Of a DNA stretch of 64,000 nt, positions 9,094 through 59,158 are shown one piece after another. The notes under the pieces were generated by a model that searched no databases, was not told the DNA's origin, and saw only the letters and a list, made by a program, of their open reading frames with translations. Source of the DNA: Thermococcus gorgonarius (GTDB lineage: Archaea; Methanobacteriota_B; Thermococci; Thermococcales; Thermococcaceae); contig NZ_CP014855.1 of assembly GCF_002214385.1 (NCBI RefSeq), forward strand, positions 372,001-436,000, written 5' to 3'. Numbering within the stretch: position 1 is the stretch's first letter; each line of letters opens with the position of its first letter. Made by a program: the position numbers and the translations under genes.

Positions 9094-10328
9094 GCTTTTT
9101 TCTTTTCTATTCTCGTACTCAATAGCTTCTCTATCTCATCCCAGAGCCTTTCTGCAAGTTCTCTCTTGCTCATTCTCGGGAGCCTCTTGTGGATGTCCCT
9201 GCCGACGAGGATAACTTCGTTTTCATCGCTCCCGAAGGCCTTGAGAGTGTTGGCCACAACTAAATCACTTCCTGCTCTGGATATCTGCTTCCGGGCCTCA
9301 CTGATCAGCTCTTCTTCATTTAATCCGGTTTCTGCCTTGAATCCTACTAGAAAAACCTCCGGCTGGAGTTCTTTTATCCTGCTGATGATTTTGGGAGTCG
9401 GTTCAAGTTCAAGGGTTAGAATCCGGTCGCTCTTGATCTTTACTTTGCTTTTCTCCTTAACTCTAAAATCACTGACCGCTGCGGCCATGACAACAACATC
9501 GTACCTCTTTGAACTGAGCTCGGATTCTATGGCGTTCATCATTTCCTCAACGGTGTCCACTTCTATCTGCCTCTCTACGAAGCTTGGAACGCTGCTTCTG
9601 GTTCTTATCAGCGTTACCTCCGCCCCCCTCAGTTCGGCCTCCTCCGCCATGGCGACGCCCATTTTGCCGCTACTCGCGTTCGTTATGAACCTTATGGGGT
9701 CTATGTACTCTCTCGTTGCTCCAGCTGTGACGAGGACGCGTTTTCCCTTCAGGGGTTTGGGGTGGAGCTTTTTGATGACTCTGTAGACTATCTCATCTAT
9801 TGACGCGACCTTTGCTTTCCCCTCTTCAAAACGCGGCCCTATGAACTCGATGCCAAGTTTCTTGAGCTTTTCAATGTTCTCTTTTATTATGGGATGGTCG
9901 TACATTGTGGAGTGCATCGCAGGGGCTATCATTATCGGCGTGTGAGAAAAAGCAGTTGTCACGACGGTTGTAACGGGTGTGTCGTCTATTCCGTTGGCTA
10001 TCTTTGAGATCGTGTTTGCCGTTGCTGGACAGACAAGAATTAGGTCGGCTTTGTTCTCATGCTCCCCGGCCAGTTCCACATGCTCGATAAACCCGGTTAT
10101 CTCTGTAACAACAGGATTTCCAGTTGCGAACTCCATGGCATAAGGATGTATTATCTTGGTCGCGTTTGGCGTCATGACTGCGTGAACCTCAGCACCGTGC
10201 CTTATTAGCTCCCTTGCCAGCTTAACGCATTCAACTGCCGCTATGCTCCCAGAAATTGCAAGCACTATCTTTTTTCCAACCAGCTTTCTGCTCTTCGAGG
10301 CATGTATAAGTTTGATGTGGTGTAGCAT
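9087..10328 (-). CDS. coaBC: Bifunctional phosphopantothenoylcysteine decarboxylase / phosphopantothenate-cysteine ligase
   Basis: This 413-residue enzyme catalyses two steps of coenzyme A synthesis. The N-terminal flavoprotein decarboxylase (about 1-190) shows [15 protein letters not shown], the [11 protein letters not shown] active-site loop and the [14 protein letters not shown] segment. The C-terminal CTP-using ligase (about 195-400) shows [25 protein letters not shown] and a Lys-rich dimer region. The ATG at 10328 follows GGTGATATC. Confidence 0.96.
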
Positions 10329-10360
10329 GATATCACCATAGAACAGTGGGGGAAGGACAT

Positions 10361-10874
10361 TTAAAACCTGCCCTGAACTGGCTGTGCTCTCAGGGGAGAC
10401 TTTACGATTATCTTAATCATGTTGGGGTCATCAACTATCTTGGTGTTTGAGGGGTCCTCCAGGGTAAAGGGGCCAATTTGAGACTTCAGGATGGCTCTAA
10501 TAACGTCTTCTGAGCACTCTCTTCCCGTTATGATAGTAACCTTTGAGGGGGATCCTCGGGTCAAAGTCAAACTCCATAAAAACAACAACTGGATACCTTG
10601 AGTCCCCGATCTCCAGGGGAACCAGAAAGGCCTGATTAATTTTTTCTAGGTGTTTCTCACTATAAACTATGCTTATTTCAACTTTCTCTTTGAGAATCCT
10701 TGCAAGATCGAGGAGGGTTTCCTCCATTCCAACATCGGGAACTACAAGTCTGATTGAAAAAGTCTCCCTATCTTCGTTTAGAAAGAGCCAGCGAATAAAA
10801 ATCCCTTTCTCAACCAGGAGGTCCATTACAGTGTTCAGTGAATTTACTGGTATTTCAAAGTCTAGCTCTGGCAT
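10361..10874 (-). pseudogene. Frameshifted conserved hypothetical gene
   Basis: Two overlapping frames (10497-10874 and 10361-10588) together make one protein of about 170 residues. The first part runs into RYPVVVFMEFDFDPRIP and the second continues SKVTIITGRECSEDVIRAIL. The switch falls at a run of five C on the coding strand (about 10549-10553); removing one C restores a single frame. I do not recognise the family; the alternating strand/helix pattern suggests a small alpha/beta protein. A sequencing error, a real mutation and programmed slippage are all possible. Confidence 0.65.
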
Positions 10875-10945
10875 TAAGCAACCCTCCTGCTTTGCTAGTT
10901 CTTTTTAAAATATTTTAAAACTTTTGTCTTTGATTTTCTTGTAAC

Positions 10946-11100
10946 AAATATATAAAGAAAACAGTACAAAACGTACATCTTCTTCCACTCAGTTCTCCCG
11001 GAGGGTCGGGCCTTATTTACAGCACGGTGATTTAACCCCCATATTCAAGACGGGGGTGCCCCCCGCTTGTTAAGTTTTGGTCTTCATCGTATATAAGCTT
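10946..11100. ncRNA. Candidate structured RNA or small mobile-element relic: GC-rich block in an AT-rich gap
   Basis: The 285-bp gap 10875-11159 has no gene, but about 90 bp of it (10985-11075) is GC-rich between AT-rich flanks. A hairpin CCCG/CGGG lies at 10997-11010. Two mutually exclusive hairpins share GGGGG at 11052-11056: one with CCCCC at 11036-11040, the other with CCCCC at 11060-11064 extended by AAG/CTT. TATA-like boxes lie on both sides (about 10949-10957 and, in the other direction, about 11090-11099), so the strand is open. GC islands of this kind often mark ncRNAs in hyperthermophiles. Confidence 0.4.
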
Positions 11101-11159
11101 TTTCCCGAAAATTGTGGGATTTTTAATATTTGCTAAAAACTTTTCCAATTTGATAAAAA

Positions 11160-11919
<760 letters not shown>

Positions 11920-12016
11920 AGTGTTCACCCCTGCTTCAAAATCCACGTCAACTCGTCAATAACGGGAGGCTTAAAAAATTTTGAGTGAATTTCATACTAA
12001 CTCAAAACTTCACCCG

Positions 12017-12724
12017 TCAATAACCCTCGAAAAGCCTCTCGGCCAGAAACCTTGGTAGGCCCGCCTCAATTATTTTTCTCGCAGCCTCTTCAACGTCGTA
12101 TTCAACGCGGTGGAATTCCACGTTGTCGGGGGGCTCTTCTTCCGTGTCAATAGTCGCATAACTTGCCCTCCAGTCACCGTCGCGGGGCTGGCCTACCCCA
12201 CCGGGGTTGATTATCCTCCTGCCGTCTATGACTTTCAGCATCGGAACGTGGGTGTGACCCACCAGCAGGTCGTCCTGCCTGACGTAGCTCAGAACTGCCT
12301 TGAACTCGCTATCGGGGAGCCATGGGAAGAGGTACTCATCAAGGGGTGCCCTAGGGGAGCCGTGGATTAAAAGGTAGCTCCGCCCCCTATCGTCAGTGAA
12401 GAGCTGCCTCACGGGGAGCCTTCTCAGAAATTCAAGGTTCTCGATGCTCATTACCCGCTGGTGCCACCTCACAGCTTCCCTCGCGTAGGGGTTGAAGCCC
12501 CAGTCGGCACCGAAAGCGACAGCGTTGTCGTGGTTTCCGCGAACGCAGAGGAAAGTTCTCTTTTCCATCTGCTTTCTCACGAACTCAACGACCTCGTTTG
12601 GAGAAGCTCCGTAGCCCACTAAGTCCCCCATGCAGAGGATTGCATCGGCTTTCTTAACTTCCTTCCAGACGGCTTTAAGGGCTTCCCAGTTTGAGTGGAT
12701 GTCTGAGATGAGGGCGATGATCAT
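12017..12724 (-). CDS. Calcineurin-like metallophosphoesterase
   Basis: This 235-residue protein carries the metallophosphoesterase motifs in order: SDIHSN (residues about 7-12), CMGDLVGYG (about 31-39), RGNHDN (about 62-67), a later histidine in IHGSPR and GHTHVP. It belongs to the small ApaH/YfcE-like phosphatases with a dinuclear metal site; the substrate is not evident. It stands alone with its own promoter region upstream. Confidence 0.9.
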   Translation of the reverse strand: MIIALISDIHSNWEALKAVWKEVKKADAILCMGDLVGYGASPNEVVEFVRKQMEKRTFLCVRGNHDNAVAFGADWGFNPYAREAVRWHQRVMSIENLEFLRRLPVRQLFTDDRGRSYLLIHGSPRAPLDEYLFPWLPDSEFKAVLSYVRQDDLLVGHTHVPMLKVIDGRRIINPGGVGQPRDGDWRASYATIDTEEEPPDNVEFHRVEYDVEEAARKIIEAGLPRFLAERLFEGY

Positions 12725-12812
12725 GGTATCACCAGTTTAGTGTCTGGTATAATAAACTTAACCCTACTTGGAAAACGTTATTAATGCTAATGCATTTCTC
12801 TACTAGGGGAGA

Positions 12813-13367
12813 ATGGTGAGTAAAGTACGAGAATGGATTGCAGAAGTAACTATTAAAGAGGCCATCAGAGGGATAATGTATTTCATATTTGCTGCAGTAG
12901 TACCTGCTGCAGTAGCAGTATTGTACCATAACGAGACTTTGAATTACATGATGATAACTTTGATCAGTGTAATTTTTATCATTTTGGTATTTTGGCTAAT
13001 TCGAAAAGAGAACCAGAGGAGACGAGGAGGTATTTATTTCCCTTGCTTTCCGATGGATGAAGAAAGTTTGAATCATATAAAGAATATCAAAGAGTTTGGG
13101 GTTATATGGCCAATCTACATAAACCCCATAGAATATCTTGATCCAGATATCACCCTAGGAATTCGCACTCCCCACTTATACATTGGACGGCCCAAATGTC
13201 CAGAATGTGGCGCAGAACTAGAAGAAAAAAAGAGAAGATTGGGAAAAAGATACTTATGGAGTTGCCCCAATCCTCAATGCTCTTTTAAAAAAGACAGTGA
13301 AATAAGCATGTGCGTTGCAAAGAAAAAGGTGGAAAAGATACACCTAAAAAGGCTCCCAATAGGATGA
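12813..13367 (+). CDS. Membrane-anchored zinc-ribbon protein, unrecognised
   Basis: This 184-residue protein has two hydrophobic helices (about residues 20-38 and 48-64) followed by a cytoplasm-type part. The C-terminal zinc ribbon has CPEC at about 129-132 and CPNPQC near 150. I know no function. The gene is markedly richer in A+T than its neighbours and uses AT-rich codons, suggesting recent arrival. GGGGAGA precedes the ATG. It ends 4 bp before the convergent acyl-CoA synthetase gene. Confidence 0.75.
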   Translation: MVSKVREWIAEVTIKEAIRGIMYFIFAAVVPAAVAVLYHNETLNYMMITLISVIFIILVFWLIRKENQRRRGGIYFPCFPMDEESLNHIKNIKEFGVIWPIYINPIEYLDPDITLGIRTPHLYIGRPKCPECGAELEEKKRRLGKRYLWSCPNPQCSFKKDSEISMCVAKKKVEKIHLKRLPIG

Positions 13368-13371
13368 ATGT

Positions 13372-14769
13372 TTACTCCTTCTTCTGCTTTGCCTTCCACC
13401 TGCTCCAGCGGTAGAGGGCCGCCAAAGCCTTTATCGCCCTCTCCGGCTCTGGATAAGCCGGAATGCCCTCCTCGTTGAGCCTGTCAATAGCTTCTTTGGC
13501 CTCTATTCCGCCGACGATGGCAACGACGAGCGGCTTCTTCCTTCCGCTCTCGTTGTACTCGCGTATCACTATGTCCGCTAAGTCCCTCGGGTCGAGAACG
13601 GCAGTCTGGCAGTAGAGGACGGCTATGCTGTGCATATCGGGGTGGGCGAGTGCATCTCTGATAGCTCCTTCATAGCTCTCGGCCCCGGCCATACCGGTCA
13701 AGTCAACTGGGTTCTTGTAGCTTCCGAAGGGCGGCATGTGGTTTGCAAAGACCTTGAGCTCCTCCAGGTTGTCGTAGAGGTGCAGGCCTGCCTCCTCAGC
13801 GGCATCTGTGGCCATAACACCTATTCCACCGCCGTTGGTGATTATGACGAGGTTCTCGCCGGCAGGCTCAGGCAGGTTGCTCAAAGTTCTCGCATAGTCG
13901 AAGGCCTCTCCGATGGTGTAGGCCCTTATTATGCCCGCCTGCTTGAAGGCCGCGTCGTAAACCTTGTCGCTTCCGGCCAGCGAACCGGTGTGTGAGGCGG
14001 CCGCCTTTGCACCGCGCTCGCTCCTTCCGGCCTTGATGATGACTATCGGCTTTACCTTGCTGACCTTCTTTGCAGTCTCCATGAACCTCCTTCCGTCCTT
14101 GACACCCTCCATGTAGATGAGGATGGCCTTGGTGTTCTCGTCCTCCTTGAAGAACTCGAGCAGGTCGGCATCGTCTATGTCACTCTTATTTCCAACACTG
14201 ACGACTGCCGAAAGACCGACTTTCTCAAGTATAGTCCAGCCCATAAGGGCTATTCCCAGAGCCCCGCTCTGGCTGATAAGAGCAAGCGGTCCGGGGAGAA
14301 CGTCCGTTGGACCAAAGGTGGCGTTGAGCTTCTCGGGTGTGTACACAACGCCGAAGATGTTCGGGCCCAGGATTCTCATACCGTATTTTCTTGCGGTCTC
14401 GACGAGCTGCTGCTCGACCTTCTTGCCCTCCTCACCAAGCTCGCCGAAGCCAGAGCTGATTATCGGAAGAACCTTGACACCCTTCTTTCCAGCCTCCTCA
14501 ACGACCTGTGGGACGAACTTGGCCGGGACGACGATGACAGCCATGTCAACCTCGTCGGGAACGTCGAGGATGCTCTTGTAGACGGGGAACTTCCTTCCGC
14601 TGATCTCTATCTCCCCGCCCTTTACGTTGACGGCGTATATCTTGCCCTCATAGCCGTACTCAACGAGGTTCTTCATAATGGCATAGCCTATCTTCCCGGG
14701 CTTTCCTGAAGCGCCTATAACTGCGACGCTCCTCGGCCTGAAAAGGGCTTCAATGTTTGGGTCAGCCAT
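13372..14769 (-). CDS. Acetyl/acyl-CoA synthetase (ADP-forming) alpha subunit
   Basis: This 465-residue protein matches the alpha subunit of NDP-forming acyl-CoA synthetases, which make ATP from acyl-CoA thioesters at the end of peptide and sugar fermentation in Thermococcales. It has a CoA-binding Rossmann domain (SVAVIGASGKPGKIGYAIMKN near residue 15). The ligase domains follow, with the phosphorylated His at about 259 in KAAASHTGSLAG. The beta subunit is not nearby, as is common in this order. The ATG at 14769 follows AGGTGAT. Which acyl-CoA isoform this is cannot be told from sequence alone. Confidence 0.92.
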   Translation of the reverse strand: MADPNIEALFRPRSVAVIGASGKPGKIGYAIMKNLVEYGYEGKIYAVNVKGGEIEISGRKFPVYKSILDVPDEVDMAVIVVPAKFVPQVVEEAGKKGVKVLPIISSGFGELGEEGKKVEQQLVETARKYGMRILGPNIFGVVYTPEKLNATFGPTDVLPGPLALISQSGALGIALMGWTILEKVGLSAVVSVGNKSDIDDADLLEFFKEDENTKAILIYMEGVKDGRRFMETAKKVSKVKPIVIIKAGRSERGAKAAASHTGSLAGSDKVYDAAFKQAGIIRAYTIGEAFDYARTLSNLPEPAGENLVIITNGGGIGVMATDAAEEAGLHLYDNLEELKVFANHMPPFGSYKNPVDLTGMAGAESYEGAIRDALAHPDMHSIAVLYCQTAVLDPRDLADIVIREYNESGRKKPLVVAIVGGIEAKEAIDRLNEEGIPAYPEPERAIKALAALYRWSRWKAKQKKE

Positions 14770-49682: not shown

Positions 49683-51419
49683 ATGGGAGAATCGCTCAAA
49701 GGGCTGGCCAGACTGCTGGGGTATCTGAGGGGACACGCCCTCCACTTCTCGCTGGGCATGGTTATGGTACTCCTCATGTCATACACCAGCGGAGTGGTTC
49801 CCGTCCTCATAAGGGAGGCCATAGACAGGGGCGTGACTGCTGGAGACTACGGTCAGGCCCTCGAGTATGCACTCCTCATACTCCTCGTTGGCGTCCTCAA
49901 CGGGGCCTTCAGCTTTGCTGGGAGGTATCTCCTCGTCAAATCGGCCCAGCATGCGGTTTACCACCTCAGGATGGACGCTTTTAGGGCAATTCAGCGGCAG
50001 AGGATGGAGTTTTTCGACAAGACCTTCTCAGGCCAGCTGATAAGCAGAATAACCAACGACACGGAGAGGATAACGAGGTTCCTCTCATTCCGGCTGAGGA
50101 TGTTTGTGTACTCGCTCTTTCTGATAGCGGTCTCGCTCTACTACATGATCCGGATGAACACCCTCCTGACTGCCGTGGCCCTGGTTACCATAGGGATCGT
50201 TGTGGCCCTGAACTCGGCCTACGCGATGAAAGTCCGCCCCATCTACGACAGGATCAGGCACCAGACCGGGGTAATAGCCTCCACGGCGACAGGGACGATA
50301 GCCGGGATAAAGACGATAAAGGCCCTTTCGGTGGAGGAAGAAATCCACGAGAAGTTCGAGAGGGAGAACGAGGAGCTCTACTCACTCAACGTCGAGGCCA
50401 CTAGAATAGTGGCGATATACGGAAACGCTTCCTTCCTCGTCCTTGGAATAGCGATGAGTGCGATGCTCTACTTTGGTGGAAGGGCCATCATAGTGAACAC
50501 GCTGACGGTTGGAGAGCTCGCGGCCTTCCTCACGTACATGCTCACGATGACCTGGCCCCTCAGGGCGCTCGGTTTCACAATAGCCGACATCCAGAGGAGC
50601 TTGGCCGCGGCTTCGAGACTTTTTGAGGTTGTGGATTCCGCTCCCGAGAGCGTTGATCCTCCAGACGCGGTCGAGCTGAAGAACCCAAGGGGCGAGGTGG
50701 AGTTCAGGGACGTGTGGCTCACCTACCACACGGGGAAGACCGTGCTCAGGGGGCTGAGCTTTAAGGTGAGGCCCGGGGAGAAGGTCGTCATAACCGGACC
50801 GCCGGGCTCGGGGAAGAGCACGGTTCTTAAGCTGATAGCCAGGTTCTACGAGCCCGAGAGGGGAGAGGTGCTCCTGGACGGGATTGACGTGAGAAAGATA
50901 AAGACGGAGAGCCTGAGGAAGACTGTAGCCTACGTCCCGCAGGAGCCCTTCATCTTCAACAGGAGCATAAGGGAGAACATCGCCCTTGCCAAGCCGGACG
51001 CGACGATGGAGGAGATAGTAAGGGCCGCCAAGATAGCGAAGATACACGATTTCATAGCCTCTCTTCCAGAAGGCTACGACACGGTCCTCGGCGAGAAGGG
51101 GGTAACCCTTTCGGGCGGACAGAGGCAGAGGATAGCGCTGGCGAGGGCCCTGCTCCTCGATCCAAAGGTAATCCTCCTCGATGATCCTGTCTCGAACCTC
51201 GACGCCGGAACCGAGAAGCGGCTCGTGGAGGACTTGAGGGAGATACTGAAGGACAGGACGGCGTTGATAGTCTCTCAGAGGCCGTCGCTCGTAAAGCTCG
51301 CCGACAGAGCTATCGTGATGGCCGAGGGCAGAATAGTGGAGGACGGTAAACCGGAGGAGCTGGTCAGGAAAGGTGGAGCCTTCAGCGAGATGCTCAGGGC
51401 GGTGGGAGGAAATGAATGA
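49683..51419 (+). CDS. ABC exporter half-transporter, degenerate-site subunit
   Basis: This 578-residue protein has an N-terminal six-helix transmembrane domain (about 1-320) and a C-terminal ATPase: Walker A GPPGSGKST (about 370), signature LSGGQ, Walker B VILLDDPVSNLD. The catalytic Glu after Walker B is Asp and the switch His is Gln (VSQRPS). It therefore should pair with the next gene product, which has the active residues, as in heterodimeric multidrug or lipid exporters. Substrate unknown. Confidence 0.93.
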   Translation: MGESLKGLARLLGYLRGHALHFSLGMVMVLLMSYTSGVVPVLIREAIDRGVTAGDYGQALEYALLILLVGVLNGAFSFAGRYLLVKSAQHAVYHLRMDAFRAIQRQRMEFFDKTFSGQLISRITNDTERITRFLSFRLRMFVYSLFLIAVSLYYMIRMNTLLTAVALVTIGIVVALNSAYAMKVRPIYDRIRHQTGVIASTATGTIAGIKTIKALSVEEEIHEKFERENEELYSLNVEATRIVAIYGNASFLVLGIAMSAMLYFGGRAIIVNTLTVGELAAFLTYMLTMTWPLRALGFTIADIQRSLAAASRLFEVVDSAPESVDPPDAVELKNPRGEVEFRDVWLTYHTGKTVLRGLSFKVRPGEKVVITGPPGSGKSTVLKLIARFYEPERGEVLLDGIDVRKIKTESLRKTVAYVPQEPFIFNRSIRENIALAKPDATMEEIVRAAKIAKIHDFIASLPEGYDTVLGEKGVTLSGGQRQRIALARALLLDPKVILLDDPVSNLDAGTEKRLVEDLREILKDRTALIVSQRPSLVKLADRAIVMAEGRIVEDGKPEELVRKGGAFSEMLRAVGGNE

Positions 51420-53154
51420 GTCGTCGCTCTCGCTCATAGTGCGCTTCGTAAGGGAAGCCCTCTCCGAGAGGAAAACCCTCGCCATAGTGGTGGCGAGCAT
51501 CATAGGTTCGGCCCTAGCCAACCTGGCCTCCCCCTACCTCCTGAGCGTGGCGATAGACCGCTACATAGTGCCCGGGAGATACGAGAAGCTAGGGTTCATC
51601 GCGGCCCTCTACCTCCTCGCCCTCGCCGGCCAGTGGTTCTTCATGACGCTCCAGACGTACTATACAGAGGTTTTCGGCCAGAAGGTTCTCAGGAAGCTCA
51701 GGAGCAGACTGCACGAGAAAGTTCTCTCAGCGAACCTCGACTTCTTCAAAGAGAAGTCTACCGGCGACCTTGTGTCGAGGATAATCAACGACACCGGCGT
51801 GGTGAACGACGTCCTCGTTTCCGGCCTGCTGGGCGGGCTCGGGAGCCTGCTGAGCCTGGCGGGCATAATAGTTGCCATGCTCATACTCGACCTCAGGCTG
51901 ACCCTCGTAACCCTCACCAGCGTGCCGCTCATGGTGTTGGTTGCCTACTACTTCGGGGGAAAGATGAGGAAGGCCTACCGCGAGACGAGGAGGAAAATAG
52001 CGAGGATTTCCAGCGTGGTCGAGGAGAGCGTTGCTGGAATAGAGACGATACGCGCCTTTGGAAGGGAAGGCCAGGTCGAGAGGGAGTTCTCAGAGGCGTC
52101 GCTGGAGACGATAAAGGCCTACCTGCGGGTCGCGGTTTACATGGGCCTCTTCTGGCCCCTCATGAACATAACGAGCCTCCTCTCGGTTGTGGTGGTCATA
52201 GCCTACGGCGGCTACCTCGCCTACCAGGGGAGCGTCAGCATAGGAGTCGTCGTGGCCTTCATCCAGTACGCCCAGCGCTTCCGCGGGCCGATAAACAACG
52301 TTGTAAGCATGTATGACAGCCTGCAGTCCGCTCTGGCCGCTGTGGAGAGGATATACGGGGTCCTGGACGATGAGAGGGTGGAGGACTACAGCGGAAAACC
52401 CGTGGAAAAGCTGAGAGGCGAGATAGAGTTCAGAGACGTCTGGTTCGAGTACGAGAAGGGAAGGCCCGTGCTCAAAGGGATAAACCTCTCGATTTCCTCT
52501 GGCTCAAAGATTGCCCTCGTGGGAAGGACTGGGGCAGGAAAGACGACCATCGCGAACCTGATAATGCGCTTTTACGACCCGACCAGGGGCTCAGTCCTCT
52601 ACGACGAGATCGACGGGAGGGAGATAAGCAGGAAGAGCCTGCGGAGGAGGATAGGCTACGTCCCCCAGGAGACCTACCTCTTCCCTGGGACGATAATGGA
52701 GAACATCCTTATAGCGAACCCCAAAGCGAGCGAGGAGGACGTGGTGAGGGTCTGCAGGGAGCTTGGGATCCACGACTTCATAATGAGGCTCCCCAAGGGG
52801 TACGAAACCCAGGCAGGGGAGGCCGGAAAACTGCTCTCCGTCGGGGAGAAACAGCTGATCTCGCTCGCGAGGGCGATGCTCAAGGATCCGGACGTGATTA
52901 TCCTCGATGAGGCTCTCTCGAGCGTTGACCCCAAGACTGAGAGGCTCGTTCAGGACGCGATGCTGAGGCTCATGGAGGGCAGGACGAGCATAATCATAGC
53001 CCACCGCCTTGGCATAACCCGCTTCGTGGACAGGGTTGTCGTGGTCGAGGACGGGGAGATCGTTGAGGAAGGCTCTCCAGAGGCCCTACTCGAGAGGAAG
53101 GGCCGCTTCTACCGGCTCTACACCTCCCAGCTCAGCGGGGCTGAAGTGGACTGA
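51412..53154 (+). CDS. ABC exporter half-transporter, catalytic-site subunit
   Basis: This 580-residue protein has a six-helix transmembrane domain and then an ATPase with Walker A GRTGAGKTT, Walker B VIILDEALSSVD with the catalytic Glu, and switch His in IAHRLG. Its own signature is changed to LSVGEKQ. It would combine with the partner's LSGGQ to form one good ATP site and one degenerate site. The start ATG 51412 overlaps the partner's stop by 8 bp, so the two are made together. Confidence 0.93.
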   Translation: MNESSLSLIVRFVREALSERKTLAIVVASIIGSALANLASPYLLSVAIDRYIVPGRYEKLGFIAALYLLALAGQWFFMTLQTYYTEVFGQKVLRKLRSRLHEKVLSANLDFFKEKSTGDLVSRIINDTGVVNDVLVSGLLGGLGSLLSLAGIIVAMLILDLRLTLVTLTSVPLMVLVAYYFGGKMRKAYRETRRKIARISSVVEESVAGIETIRAFGREGQVEREFSEASLETIKAYLRVAVYMGLFWPLMNITSLLSVVVVIAYGGYLAYQGSVSIGVVVAFIQYAQRFRGPINNVVSMYDSLQSALAAVERIYGVLDDERVEDYSGKPVEKLRGEIEFRDVWFEYEKGRPVLKGINLSISSGSKIALVGRTGAGKTTIANLIMRFYDPTRGSVLYDEIDGREISRKSLRRRIGYVPQETYLFPGTIMENILIANPKASEEDVVRVCRELGIHDFIMRLPKGYETQAGEAGKLLSVGEKQLISLARAMLKDPDVIILDEALSSVDPKTERLVQDAMLRLMEGRTSIIIAHRLGITRFVDRVVVVEDGEIVEEGSPEALLERKGRFYRLYTSQLSGAEVD

Positions 53155-53488
53155 CGGTCAATGGATGGAACGCAAAATAGGCCGTGGAAGAAATGGGGAT
53201 AGCTCAGACCGTACCCTTGATGGGGCTTCAGGGCAGGAATACTCTCGATGGCATCTCTAGCGGTCCTGAGGGTTAATGTGGGCAGGTGAAGGTTGTAGAG
53301 GTGGCGGTTCATGGGAGATTCCTTTATAGTTTTCTGTTCTGTTATGTATCAATAAAACATTATCTCTTGATCAGCCAACAATTTTAGAAAATTTTATGAG
53401 GGCGTTTTTGAAAAATATACTGGAGGAGATTGATATTGAAGGGTTGTCTAGAAAGAAAATAAAAAGGAACTTAAATGGTGAGGGAATC
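53155..53488. other. 334-bp gap before the ESCRT-III-like gene
   Basis: There is no convincing gene. Composition falls from GC-rich to AT-rich near 53310, the left edge of the AT-rich island. A TATA-like CCTTTATAG lies at 53321-53329. CGATGG...CTGA elements near 53247-53275 loosely recall a box C/D RNA but lack a proper C box. A frame reading from ATG 53396 into the next gene has no binding site. Confidence 0.5.
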
Positions 53489-55321
53489 ATGGGTATCCTC
53501 TCTAAATTTTTCGGCAAAAAAAATCCTATGGATGTATCCTTGGACGTATTGAGAGAAACTCAAGCAACGCTTGAGATTCAAATTAGAAAAATTGAGAATG
53601 AGATAGCCAGCATAGATCGCGAGATAGCGGCGCTCTTTGAAAGGGCAAAGAGCGCGAGGAGCAAGAGCGAAGAGCTCACCATAGCGACGAAGATAAAGAC
53701 CCTTAACCAGCGCAAGAAGAACCTCCAGGCAACACACATGCAGCTCAACAAGCAGCTCATGCTCATAAGCAACCTGGCCATAATCAAGGAGAACGAGGCC
53801 ATCCTGAAGGGAACGCCAACTTGGGAGATGCTCCGCAACATGTCACCGGAGGAGCTTGAGAGGAACCTGACGACCATGCAGCTGGATGCGCAGAACTTCA
53901 ACGAGAACCTCAACCAGATGCTCGGCATAACTGACCAGACGCTGGGCGTTGGGGCTGACTTCGAGGAGGACGAAGAGCTGGCCGAGATAATGAAGACCAT
54001 CCACGCGGTTAAAGAGGGTGAGCTCGAGCCTGAAACAGAATCAATTGTCAAGCTTCGTAGTATATTGTTAGATATCCAAAACAATTATGAGTTAGTACGT
54101 TTTAATTTGATCGAATTTTTGAGGAAAGAATTAGGATTCTCAAAAGAGACAATAGAAGAATTGTTGTATATACTTGAAGATATACTTAACGATTGGGCAA
54201 GAATCAGGGGGGCTAAGAAGATAAATTCTCAAACGTTGAATCTGCTCACTATAGAATTCTTGATTCGTTTGATCCTACCATACCTAAAAACAAAACATAT
54301 ACCCCCCGGGAATGAAATTAAAAATCAGCTTGAACAACTACAACAAGTGGCTTACTGTGTTAAAATTCCTAGCAAACATGAGTATTGTGAATATTTATCT
54401 CTATATGAGCAGATCTCACTATTAATGTCCCCTACAACGAGAGAATGCGTGGAGAACATTCTAAAGACTGCAAAACACGTCATTGACAATAGCACAAAGA
54501 TTGCAAAAATGGACTTTTATCTACGAGTGAACCTCTGGAATGAGCTACAAGAAAAATACATGTTATATGAAAAAGGGGTGTGTGGGCAATTTCCAAAACA
54601 TCTAGATCTAGTTAAGTATTTAGATAATTATATAAGAATCCACCTAGAAACGGCATTGGCATTTCTGGCTTTAACCTTCAAGGAAAATAAGGAGGAATAT
54701 CCCCCAGCAATAGATAGATTTAGTGAGTCAGAGCTTCATACAATTAAGTTGATACGTGAATATGATATCTTTGGCAAATTAGAATCAGAAGAAATTATGA
54801 GGAGAATCTTGGCTAATGATGAACATGTAAAAACATTACTCAAGTTATATCCCACTATGGAGGAGCATATTATCTCATCATGCTCTAACTGGTATCTTTA
54901 TTGGTATTTGATGTGTTCTTGGGAAAAACAGAAAGAGAGAATAGACAAAAAGGTGAATGAAATCTTGGATCAGTTATTAGAGCATAATCTAACTACTAAC
55001 GGCTCAATGTTAAAATCAAACCCAAATCAGGAAGTTTTAGCGATACCTTTTAGAAATTTTTTTGAAACCGTTTCCATTTACTTGATAGGCACTAAAAAAT
55101 TATCGAAGAGAATCTCTAAGAAGCTTTCTAATATGGCGAGAATTCTTGCAATGTCCTCTGAATTCACGCGTAGTATAGGGTGGGGATTCCTTAAGCATCT
55201 CGATAAAAAACCTAGTAGCATAACTCAGGAAGGGGAGTTATACATAGAGAACGAGATTATTCATGAAGAATTAGAGGAACTTCTAGACACCGGAAAGAGC
55301 GATGTTCTCAGCTCATTTTAA
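53489..55321 (+). CDS. ESCRT-III/Snf7-like (CdvB-like) domain fused to a large helical domain of unknown function
   Basis: This is a 610-residue protein. Residues 1-185 look like ESCRT-III: a short basic amphipathic start GILSKFFGKKNP, then DVLRETQATLEIQIRKIENEIASIDREI (helix 1), a Lys-rich helix 2 (IKTLNQRKKNLQATHMQLNKQL), MSPEELERNLTTM, and an acidic end GVGADFEEDEELAEIM as in CHMP proteins. Residues 186-610 are helical, AT-rich and unrecognised, with several Trp/Tyr. DNA composition switches at about 53590 and 54040. ATG 53489 has GGTGAGGG before it; ATG 53396 has none. The ESCRT-III call is by pattern, not a search. Confidence 0.66.
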   Translation: MGILSKFFGKKNPMDVSLDVLRETQATLEIQIRKIENEIASIDREIAALFERAKSARSKSEELTIATKIKTLNQRKKNLQATHMQLNKQLMLISNLAIIKENEAILKGTPTWEMLRNMSPEELERNLTTMQLDAQNFNENLNQMLGITDQTLGVGADFEEDEELAEIMKTIHAVKEGELEPETESIVKLRSILLDIQNNYELVRFNLIEFLRKELGFSKETIEELLYILEDILNDWARIRGAKKINSQTLNLLTIEFLIRLILPYLKTKHIPPGNEIKNQLEQLQQVAYCVKIPSKHEYCEYLSLYEQISLLMSPTTRECVENILKTAKHVIDNSTKIAKMDFYLRVNLWNELQEKYMLYEKGVCGQFPKHLDLVKYLDNYIRIHLETALAFLALTFKENKEEYPPAIDRFSESELHTIKLIREYDIFGKLESEEIMRRILANDEHVKTLLKLYPTMEEHIISSCSNWYLYWYLMCSWEKQKERIDKKVNEILDQLLEHNLTTNGSMLKSNPNQEVLAIPFRNFFETVSIYLIGTKKLSKRISKKLSNMARILAMSSEFTRSIGWGFLKHLDKKPSSITQEGELYIENEIIHEELEELLDTGKSDVLSSF

Positions 55322-55323
55322 TA

Positions 55324-56274
55324 TCATTCACTTTGTTCATGTTTTGTTTTTGTAATAAAGAGTAATATATACAAGATATTGTCTCTTATATAATATTGGG
55401 GGAGCAGTTTAAAGTTCCTCTTAAATACAACATCAGAGAATTTTAGGGCAGTTCTCAATTTGTCTTTGTAGGGTTTTTTTAAATTTATCAAAATTTTAGC
55501 TTCGAAAAGTTTTCGTTGAATTTTTATTAGGTGTTCATATACATGTAACACGTTAAAATACTGGAACAACGAAAGAAAGAGTACTATCTGTAGACCTTCC
55601 ATAATTAAAAATCCCTCTATCATATTGTACCTGATCAAGACTTTAAGGAGATAATAGATATCAACTATAGATTGTATAACATTGGTAGTAAAAAGAATGA
55701 GAACTGGAGACAAAAGATATAACAGGTAGGGACTATCACTAGAACTAACTTTGAAAATTTTTTGAATATTCTTTTCTATTGAAATTAAAGAGAGCATTAT
55801 AATAAATAATAGTATTAAATTTAATTCCAGCACTCTCCTACTCAGTGGGTAATAGGATAAATTCAATATTGAGAAGAGAGTAAGAATCGAAATAAAAATA
55901 GTAAGTCCTCCAATTAAAAATAGAGTTTCAAAAAAAGATTTTGTGTTCTCCTTGCGTACATCCAATAAATATGAAAGATATTCTAAAGAAACACCTCTTT
56001 TTAAAAGTCTAGAAAAATATATTATCCCCCATATCACATGCATGAGATACACAAAAACAAAAAACGATACAAGAATTGAATTTGAGATTAACCAATAAAC
56101 CCACTGTCTCAAATATAGCACGGATAACCCAAATGACGCCAACAACAAACTTATAGTAGTTAAAAGGAGGATATTAGGACTCTCTATTGTATCTAAGAGG
56201 GATGATATTTTCTGAAGTTCTATGTCTATAATTCTCTCTACCTCATTATCCCCCAACTTAATTTGATGACCCAT
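55324..56274 (-). CDS. Polytopic membrane protein, AT-rich, unrecognised
   Basis: This 316-residue protein has about six hydrophobic helices (first at about 33-51, then pairs to about residue 245) and soluble ends: an N-terminal helix LGDNEVERIIDIELQKISSLLDTI and a basic C-terminal part FRN/KPYKDKLRTALKFSDVVFKRNFK. It shares the strong AT bias of its convergent neighbour and ends 2 bp from it, suggesting the two arrived together. Not recognised. A weak TATA stretch lies upstream around 56300. Confidence 0.75.
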   Translation of the reverse strand: MGHQIKLGDNEVERIIDIELQKISSLLDTIESPNILLLTTISLLLASFGLSVLYLRQWVYWLISNSILVSFFVFVYLMHVIWGIIYFSRLLKRGVSLEYLSYLLDVRKENTKSFFETLFLIGGLTIFISILTLFSILNLSYYPLSRRVLELNLILLFIIMLSLISIEKNIQKIFKVSSSDSPYLLYLLSPVLILFTTNVIQSIVDIYYLLKVLIRYNMIEGFLIMEGLQIVLFLSLFQYFNVLHVYEHLIKIQRKLFEAKILINLKKPYKDKLRTALKFSDVVFKRNFKLLPQYYIRDNILYILLFITKTKHEQSE

Positions 56275-56369
56275 AATTTAGTTATTCACAAGGTTAATTT
56301 AAAAACTTATCCTCTGTAGATCACACTGTTAGAAATGAAATTAGACAGATTATTTACGCTCTAATTCTC

Positions 56370-56576
56370 CTACAACATCCTCAACAAATTGGTGAGGAAG
56401 TCTATTGCATATAACTGGTGGGGCGTGTGGAGTGGGACTTCGACTCCTGGGCAGAAACCTACGACGAAGACGTTGGGGTAGAGAATTGGCTTCACACCGA
56501 TTGCGGGGGTTCTAAAGCTCGTGGCGAAGATTTTCTTTTCTAGGCCCTTGAGAATGTAAGGTATCACGGCACACAC
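56370..56576 (-). pseudogene. Short C-terminal-like fragment
   Basis: This 68-residue frame reads FATSFRTPAIGVKPILYPNVFVVGFCPGVEVPLHTPHQLYAIDFL, which looks like the last part of a larger globular protein. It begins at a GTG just after the beta-propeller pseudogene's stop without a good binding site. I cannot name the family. It marks the right edge of the AT-rich island and is probably a relic. Confidence 0.4.
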
Positions 56577-56578
56577 CC

Positions 56579-57507
56579 CTAAACCCTCTCGACCACTATA
56601 ACCGTCTTCCCCTCTTCCTCCTTAACCCCGAGTGCAACGCCCTTTCCTAAAACCTCGACCCAGCCGCGCTCCCAGGGTTCTCTCTTCCAGAGGATTTCCC
56701 CCTTCAGGTCGAGCTTTATCACCGCCGCTTTCCCCTCGACTTCGCCCCCAATGAGGAGACCGTCTTTGGTTGGCAGGAGCGAGGTTGCCGAGCCGTTCGG
56801 GAGCGTTACCTCCCAGTCTCTGCCCCAGACCCACAGGTCACTCCCTTTGTAGCCACCCAGAATTATTTTCCCTCCCATTTCGGCGGCCGTTAGGGCGATT
56901 CCCTTCCCGAGCTCGCTTTCCCTTATCAGTTCCCCGTTCTCAGTGAACTCAAACGCTTTAACCTTCCATTTCTCCTCCTTCACGCTTCCGACGAGGACGG
57001 GCTTACCGTTGAGTTCAAACAGGCCGGAAATCACGGCATCACCCAGAGACCTAGGGTCTTGAGCCAGAGGAGTTCGCCGTCCAGCGTGATTCTCCCGACG
57101 AAGAAGCCCCTGCCTTTCCCATCCGAGGTCTCTCCAGCGATGAAGGCCCCGCCCTCGGCTGGCAGAATGGAGTAAACGCATTCATTGCCAAGGATTTCCA
57201 GCTTTTTCTCCCAGAGGACTTCAAGGTTCCCGTTAAGCCTCGCCACGTAGCCCTTCCATCCCTCGCCGCCCTCAGGTGTGGCCTTCCCCTCAACTGCACC
57301 GCCGATGAGATAGCCGTCTTTGAGCTTTGCTATGCTGTGCCCTTCCTAGTCGTTTTTGCCTGATATGAACTTCAACTCCTTTATATCCTCCTCGTCGAGC
57401 CTTGCGAGCATTATTTTGTAGGCCTTTCCGTCGTGGACGCTCCCGACGAGCAGGTCACCGGCGAGTGCAACCGGAACCGTCTCAACGCCGAAGGAGTAGG
57501 TTTTCAT
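56579..57507 (-). pseudogene. Decayed beta-propeller (PQQ/WD-like repeat) gene
   Basis: The frame starts ATG 57507 (GGGGGA before it) and runs to an in-frame TAG at 57346-57348. The same frame then resumes directly (EGHSIAKLKDGYLIGGAVEG) to 57031. A one-base shift near 57040-57055 moves the rest to another frame (GDAVISGLFELNG...) ending at 56579. Repeats of the type GxxLIGGxxxG...K.D..G.I.W are those of propeller blades. The full protein would be about 309 residues. One nonsense change plus one frameshift indicate loss of function. Confidence 0.75.
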
Positions 57508-57600
57508 CGACAGTCCCCCTTTGATGGTTTGAGTTTCCAATCAAAGAACATGGCAAAGGTTTTAAGATTTTTGCCAGTTAGTAGTAAACAGGTGATATGG

Positions 57601-58828: not shown

Positions 58829-59158
58829 ATGGAGCTCTACGACGTTGATGAGTTCTGGAAGTTTGACATGCGCGTTGGCCTCGTGAAGAAGGCCGAGAAG
58901 CTGAAGAGGACGAGGAAGCTCATTAAGCTTGAGGTCGACTTCGGGAGCGAGGAGAGGACGATAATCACCGGAATAGCCGACCAGTATTCGCCGGAGAACC
59001 TTGAAGGGAAGAAGTTCGTCTTCGTCCTCAACTTAAAGCCCAAAAAGCTCTCCGGCGTCGAGAGCAGGGGAATGCTTATCGTCGCGGAGACAGAGGACGG
59101 AAAGGTTTACCTCCTCCCGGTTCCGGAAGAGGTTCCAGTCGGAACGAGGGTGTGGTGA
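58829..59158 (+). CDS. tRNA-binding domain protein (MetRS beta/Trbp111-like)
   Basis: This 109-residue OB-fold protein has WKFDMRVGLVKKAEKLKRTRKLIKLEVDFG, RTIITGIADQYSPENLEGKKFVFVLNLKPKKLSGVESRGMLI. This is the EMAPII/Trbp111 domain that binds tRNA structure and, as a stand-alone chain, assists methionyl-tRNA synthetase in archaea. ATG 58829 follows CCGGTGGG. Its stop directly precedes the phosphatase start. Confidence 0.92.
   Translation: MELYDVDEFWKFDMRVGLVKKAEKLKRTRKLIKLEVDFGSEERTIITGIADQYSPENLEGKKFVFVLNLKPKKLSGVESRGMLIVAETEDGKVYLLPVPEEVPVGTRVW

Follow-up and report, generated by a model that had tools for sequence, protein, structure and literature searches.

The locus described here raises the question of what two AT-rich genes, lying tail to tail in DNA of higher GC content, encode in Thermococcus gorgonarius, and whether they form a single imported system. 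The genes lie in a 64-kb window (the whole stretch of DNA that was analyzed) of a single-contig, 1.67-Mb genome that is 99.98% complete (G000). Gene 1 encodes an ESCRT-III-like domain fused to a second module, part of which is homologous to c2, an operon partner of ESCRT-III in related genomes, and gene 2 encodes a membrane protein. Our preferred reading, to which we give a probability of about 0.5, is that gene 1 encodes a recombinant ESCRT-III scaffold, independent of Vps4 and with the adaptor domain built in. Its anatomy and origin, namely a recombinant ESCRT-III core, a c2-type module and arrival by import, are very probable.

Mosaic structure of gene 1

Within the frame of gene 1 (Table 1), the sequence suggests the ATG at 53489 as the likely true start, giving a product of 610 aa, because homologous ESCRT-III-B (ESCRT-B) proteins begin there; the motif GGTGAGG, picked out by eye, stands just upstream. 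In 100-bp steps, the GC content is 31-36% at 53300-53600, 52-57% at 53600-54050 and 24-42% at 54050-56400, and the gene around the GC-rich tract is 34-35% GC. The original prediction held that both genes share an AT bias. To judge from the GC content at third codon positions (GC3), this stands for gene 2 (0.30) and for the outer parts of gene 1 (0.36 for residues 32-67 and again for residues 217-641) and fails for residues 68-216 (0.76); uniform AT richness of both genes is therefore rejected by the GC-rich block at 53592-54037.

Maximum-likelihood breakpoints against the ESCRT-III-B gene of a Thermococcus metagenome-assembled genome (L049) fell at 53592 and 54037, with a log-likelihood gain of 71, and those against a second such genome (L050) at 53594 and 54037. 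Across the three parts delimited in this way, DNA identity to the L049 gene goes from 0.54 to 0.90 and then to 0.35, the tract itself being 90% identical in DNA and 95% in protein. The identity of residues 32-67 to ESCRT-B is 53-64% in 19 Thermococcus loci, 53-67% in 24 Thermococcaceae loci and 42-47% in five distant archaea, and that of residues 68-209 is 82-95%, 74-95% and 55-62%, respectively. The GC-rich tract stops at the start of the native ESCRT-B tail of ~25 residues, and this tail is absent from gene 1, in which homology ends at about residue 216. On this sequence evidence, the tract is a piece of a Thermococcus ESCRT-III-B gene spliced into an AT-rich gene, and the AT-rich part is close to no sampled lineage. 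The sharp borders at 53592 and 54037 are also compatible with a block joined in silico during assembly, but the chance of this is next to negligible: the frame is kept through both joins, the single-contig genome holds no second match to gene 1, and every one of the nine ESCRT-B genes set against the block is at least 10% different from it in DNA.

Compared with L049, the tract has a nonsynonymous divergence (dN) of 0.026 and a synonymous divergence (dS) of 0.599 (dN/dS 0.044), and parsimony places 26 synonymous and three nonsynonymous changes on the window branch. By these counts the history of the tract is one of purifying selection, an estimate that partly reflects time in the donor lineage before the transfer and to that extent speaks against our reading. 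The AT-rich parts have no close relatives for dN/dS, but are very unlikely to be open by chance: at this composition, the probability that the 425 AT-rich codons of gene 1 would form an open frame is 7e-16.

Gene 1 has no second match in G000, and the plasmid and phage records searched contain no copy of the fusion. A contig scan with gene 1 returned two loci, both ESCRT-B and without fusion, and the C-terminal module gave no hits in a scan of viral contigs. In PHROGs there was one nonsignificant match (E 0.03), in PADLOC none, and in NCBIfam nothing near a cut-off.

The ESCRT-III-like core and the fused module

The prediction of an ESCRT-III-like protein holds for residues 32-216, on the combined grounds of sequence and predicted fold, each line of evidence being moderate. 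The Pfam family Snf7 (PF03357) matched these residues with 20.2 bits (E 5e-4), against a curated cut-off of 27.3. Nine of the 12 members of the ESCRT-B alignment matched Snf7 at E <= 0.1, and so did the paralogue ESCRT-C (nine members of nine, best score 26.9 bits). Among the 94 Thermococcales genomes, 15 responded at E <= 0.001, none above the cut-off, and among 14 control genomes only that of Sulfolobus acidocaldarius responded, below the cut-off; as S. acidocaldarius also fails it, the cut-off separates poorly in archaea. When profiles were compared, ESCRT-A matched ESCRT-B with a probability of 98.4% and ESCRT-C matched ESCRT-B with one of only 9.5%. An AF2 model of the domain, built from five sequences (predicted local distance difference test score, pLDDT, 77), places helices at 3-8, 18-54, 59-101, 110-117, 120-128 and 134-144, that is, an N-terminal helix and a long helical hairpin (18-54/59-101) followed by shorter helices. 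In a Foldseek comparison of this model with the Protein Data Bank (PDB), the top 12 of 616 matches were all ESCRT-III chains from six entries (probability 0.91-0.99), comprising CdvB2, CdvB, CHMP2A-CHMP3 and Asgard ESCRT-IIIB.

Several observations weigh against this assignment and against our reading as a whole. The Snf7 score lies below the curated cut-off, three of the 12 ESCRT-B members lack a Snf7 match at E <= 0.1, and neither ESCRT-A nor ESCRT-B of locus L041 matched at this threshold. Sequence searches of the PDB reach no known ESCRT-III. For the domain model, Foldseek gives these chains E-values of no better than 0.06-0.18, and no match falls below 0.001; for the full-length model (pLDDT 59), ranking by E-value puts six large, helical but unrelated proteins first, and ESCRT-III chains appear from rank 7 on (CHMP3, probability 0.99, E ~1). 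In the VIA comparison, 11 of 50 rows belonged to the ESCRT-III superfamily, with Z of 8.2-9.4, no better than unrelated helical hairpins. The C-terminal module is modeled poorly, with blocks of pLDDT < 50 past residue 430 of 610. Finally, Vps4 binding by the tail is attributed to this family by analogy.

Behind the core, residues 343-524 align with the start of c2 at 29-37% identity, with E-values down to 8e-27 and one 90-residue fragment at 43%, and the alignment of this domain retains 18 invariant residues across 29 sequences. The gene 1 domain has a mean identity of 0.32 to 24 Thermococcaceae c2 domains and of 0.30 to four distant ones, whereas these two groups are 0.45 identical to each other; its lower identity to both suggests that the AT-rich parent belongs to neither of the groups sampled. 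The alignment of c2 to gene 1 ends by residue 574, and for most c2 proteins by residue 527. The coiled coil, central domain and winged helix of c2 have no sequence match in gene 1, but the remaining module is modeled at low confidence and may still contain a winged helix that escaped recognition. The c2 N-domain is present in 40 of the 94 Thermococcales genomes, G000 included, and only in G000 is it fused to ESCRT-III.

Table 1. Features of the T. gorgonarius locus, in window coordinates.
Feature	Position	Strand	Basis
Gene 1, ESCRT-III/adaptor-domain fusion	53396..55321	+	Intact open frame, 641 codons
AT-rich start of ESCRT-III domain	53489..53591	+	GC 0.35; residues 32-67
GC-rich recombined tract, Thermococcus ESCRT-III-B origin	53592..54037	+	445 bp, GC 0.54, GC3 0.76; changepoint fit
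AT-rich C-terminal module replacing native ESCRT-III tail	54038..55321	+	Composition and alignment
c2-type domain, residues 343-524	54422..54967	+	Homologous to N-terminal helical domain of ~610-aa operon partner c2
Gene 2, six-helix membrane protein, ORFan	55324..56274	-	316-codon intact frame; hydropathy, charge
Island	53207..56579	no strand	Swaps for 1590 bp at syntenic site of nearest relative G008

Partners, island and gene 2

In relatives, the two halves of gene 1 belong to a cassette of separate genes. The genes c1, c2, ESCRT-A and ESCRT-B stood together in all 20 Thermococcus loci examined; 29 other genomes had an ESCRT-B match, and these loci come from 19 of them. In and around the cassette lie propeller-kinases, a pentapeptide channel, PP2C, ESCRT-C and an AAA ATPase with Vps4_C above the cut-off. 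ESCRT-B was found in 39 of the 40 Thermococcales with the c2 N-domain, the exception being the draft G033 (73% complete). No other Thermococcales had it among the 347 relatives sampled, which may not include all 94; the same search gave five distant archaea with full-length matches and one weak match. Cassette-type Vps4 (at least 74% identity) occurs in 38 of the 94 Thermococcales. Two of these are the drafts G016 and G041, and the remaining 36 are genomes with ESCRT-B; of the 38 such genomes besides G000, only the fragmented drafts G052 and G125 (91% and 61% complete) are thus missing. ESCRT-C occurs in 30 of the 94.

In G000, no ESCRT-A, ESCRT-C, cassette-type Vps4 or separate c2 N-domain was found, and the sole ESCRT-B match is gene 1; that this search excluded c1, the kinases and the phosphatase PP2C, and that a c2 without N-domain would escape it, counts against our reading. 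No Vps4 was found in G000 at E <= 1e-90. At 40-43% identity to it, the genome offers only two Cdc48-like frames of 807 and 850 aa, each matching AAA twice, and one frame of 441 aa.

In other ESCRT-III proteins, the tail carries autoinhibition and Vps4 recruitment, with a MIM-type Vps4 binding site in studied members. By analogy, tail and separate c2 would together control assembly in the usual system. The core encoded by gene 1 would polymerize on the cytosolic face of the membrane like other ESCRT-III proteins, and the built-in c2 domain, in which what are normally two proteins are fused into one, may localize or nucleate the polymer. Without tail and Vps4, the polymer would not be recycled or disassembled by the canonical route, and the product would act as a Vps4-independent membrane scaffold. 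Taken as a whole, this mechanism is tentative, with odds somewhat poorer than even; a role for gene 2 as receptor, or one against resident ESCRT machines, is speculative.

Gene 1 might instead be a chimera of horizontal transfer and homologous recombination that is functionless at present and due to decay. The fusion occurs in one of 94 Thermococcales, its partners were not found in G000 and it adjoins a broken gene, all of which would fit such a passenger; with 610 codons open and a 26:3 ratio of synonymous to nonsynonymous changes in the tract, though partly a matter of donor history, we nevertheless consider it unlikely. Another reading is that gene 1 encodes a mobile-element protein in which a captured host ESCRT-III segment co-assembles with resident polymers and jams or redirects them, while its c2 domain would compete with c2 itself as adaptor. 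In favor of this, the tract that was captured falls within the hairpin core, at 95% protein identity to resident-type ESCRT-B, the tail is absent, and the cassette itself is plasmid-borne in T. peptonophilus. This we judge very unlikely, as none of the partners that it would target turned up in the searches of G000, the fusion is on no plasmid or phage record and the C-terminal module found nothing among viral contigs. The most elaborate reading joins these elements into a self-sufficient, mobile, Vps4-independent effector: a polymer and adaptor in one protein, its core renewed by recombination with Thermococcus ESCRT-III genes to co-assemble with resident polymers and the six-helix partner serving as target or anchor, which might work as spoiler, vesicle-maker or defense device. 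It seems quite unlikely to us.

Our preferred reading, the Vps4-independent scaffold, includes import of the gene. To the left of the island lie two ABC exporter genes (49683-51419 and 51373-53154) and to the right a beta-propeller gene with a broken frame (56579-57540), in keeping with the predicted bracketing by an exporter operon and decayed genes. The surroundings are also richer in GC, as predicted, with 48-59% up to 5 kb from the island (1-kb steps) compared to 24-42% in the AT-rich DNA (100-bp steps). At the same site in G008, the nearest relative (DNA identity 95% on the exporter side and 89% on the propeller side), the counterpart of the island is 53% GC and holds a 327-codon frame. 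G003 has neither the island nor the 1590-bp DNA of the G008 type, and its exporter runs almost directly into the gene at 59158. Replacement at a syntenic site and the sharp contrast in composition thus support the predicted import of the 3.4-kb island. Nor is the island conserved across Thermococcus: ESCRT-B with the c2 N-domain occurs in only part of the Thermococcales, and the archaeal genomes searched contain no credible relative of gene 2.

A boundary formed by a tRNA gene or long repeats was considered and rejected, as neither was found: the 64-kb window has no detected tRNA gene, and of the direct repeats in 53100-56800 even the longest, 26 nt at 81%, fails to flank the island. The stretch 56370-56579 has a GC content of 45-54%, a 68-codon minus-strand frame, no counterpart at the G008 site and no Pfam match, and is possibly a gene remnant carried in with the island. 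Much farther left, at 10001-13500, four 1-kb steps of 42-46% mark a second stretch of low GC. A scan for Sigma-70 type promoters, which is not meaningful for an archaeon, gave chance-level numbers.

Gene 2 was predicted to encode a six-helix membrane protein, and six hydrophobic segments are indeed present, near residues 35-53, 67-85, 118-144, 148-166, 182-209 and 219-240. A basic C-terminal tail of 76 aa contains 16 K/R, and the loop charges place both ends probably in the cytosol. The chance probability of its open frame is 1e-11. Searches of Pfam, NCBIfam, PHROGs and PADLOC assigned it to no family, and we found no match among the plasmids, phages and viral contigs searched, in 114 other genomes of the phylum or in nine further ESCRT loci, including the loci fetched from distant archaea; in 395 other archaeal genomes, two weak matches (E 5e-5 and 7e-5) were judged not credible. 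A relationship to archaeosortases was rejected, the weak matches L022 and L097 aligning at 22-25% over parts of the protein; L022, the one of the two that was inspected, looks archaeosortase-like by eye.

According to the original prediction, the two genes could be one system with the membrane protein as anchor or effector. In its fuller form, gene 2 would be the membrane anchor or receptor, with cytosolic ends that recruit the polymer of gene 1, and the two would have been imported together and work as one membrane-remodeling unit. The genes are adjacent, with stop codons 2 bp apart as predicted, they lie in the same replaced stretch and are alike in the low GC3 of their AT-rich sequence (0.36 for gene 1 and 0.30 for gene 2), both frames have stayed intact against long odds, and the basic tail of gene 2 is probably cytosolic. 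Convergent genes, however, are not co-transcribed, gene 2 was found in none of the 114 other genomes of the phylum and has no credible relative in the wider archaeal set, and 38 other Thermococcales with ESCRT-B and c2, the halves of gene 1, as separate genes manage without it. Such a two-gene module is therefore rather doubtful, and a single system is not shown. Homologues found regularly apart, which would speak against the original prediction, are borne out for gene 1, whose halves occur as separate genes in these same 38 genomes and in five distant archaea; gene 2 has no credible relative from which co-occurrence of the pair could be judged.

Some further observations concern the cassette in other genomes. 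A 49-kb plasmid of T. peptonophilus (NZ_CP014751.1) carries the entire cassette amid metal-resistance genes (L043, 17914-25817). Five archaea of two other families have the cassette (L088-L093), in loci of 29-36% GC and at 67-72% identity to Thermococcus for Vps4 and 54-60% for ESCRT-B. In five of the 20 Thermococcus cassettes (L025, L031, L034, L037, the last being L050 7548-8372, and L040), a HepT-like gene and a nucleotidyltransferase gene, a pair of the HEPN-MNT type, lie between c2 and ESCRT-A, Pfam having been run on the L050 copy only. In another Thermococcaceae genus, a TIR-domain protein (TIR_2, 60 bits; L096 11535-12242) is encoded between two kinases of the cassette, with transposase-like fragments, recognized by eye, nearby. 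Archaeal ATPase_2 (MJ1010-like) genes adjoin ESCRT-B in Thermococcus (L050 9658-11676) and in a distant archaeon (L089 9003-10013).

Comparison with known ESCRT systems

Makarova et al. 2024 (PMC10936438) describe an archaeal ESCRT system, termed 'Main clade', in Thermococcales, Methanococcales and others. The Thermococcus cassette is this published system and no new discovery in the relatives; by architecture and context only, c1 fits arCOG08177 and c2 is probably of the arCOG09748 type. A 2021 review (PMC10117752) contains the statement that Thermococcales lack ESCRT-III, which is out of date because PMC10936438 describes a Thermococcales ESCRT system. Besides Vps4 and ESCRT-III, the arCOG09748-type protein is one of two said in PMC10936438 to be universal in Main-clade systems, and contact with ESCRT-III is there proposed for winged-helix domains. 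Gene 1 shares with this system the core of ESCRT-III-B, along with a domain homologous to the helical N-terminal one of c2. It differs in being one fused gene without native tail, in a genome in which Vps4, ESCRT-A and ESCRT-C were not found, and in showing only the N-terminal domain of c2 in recognizable form, not the coiled coil, central or winged-helix domain.

By title and abstract, the literature yielded no ESCRT-III/c2 fusion, a search in which preprints were not covered and subscription papers scarcely. By Rosetta-stone logic, a natural fusion of this kind hints that c2 also acts at the polymer through its N-terminal helical domain, and it points to the arCOG09748-type N-domain as an ESCRT-III partner beside the winged helix of PMC10936438. 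A genome with the fusion and with no Vps4, ESCRT-A or ESCRT-C detected offers a test of whether an archaeal ESCRT-III polymer can be useful without its recycling ATPase. Gene 1 also indicates that ESCRT-III genes are spliced by recombination between lineages.

In CdvB of the TACK archaea, ESCRT-III is fused to a C-terminal winged helix (PMC10936438). Both proteins thus have an adaptor-type domain behind the ESCRT-III core; in gene 1, however, this is a helical adaptor N-domain with no recognizable winged helix, and Vps4 (CdvC) was not found in G000. With bacterial PspA/Vipp1, of the ESCRT-III superfamily, gene 1 shares the helical hairpin core, and structural matches are present. PspA and Vipp1 work without Vps4. 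Gene 1 differs from them in that its closest sequence relatives are the Thermococcus ESCRT-III-B proteins of the 19 loci compared above, and it is a real variant of a known system, so far of a single genome.

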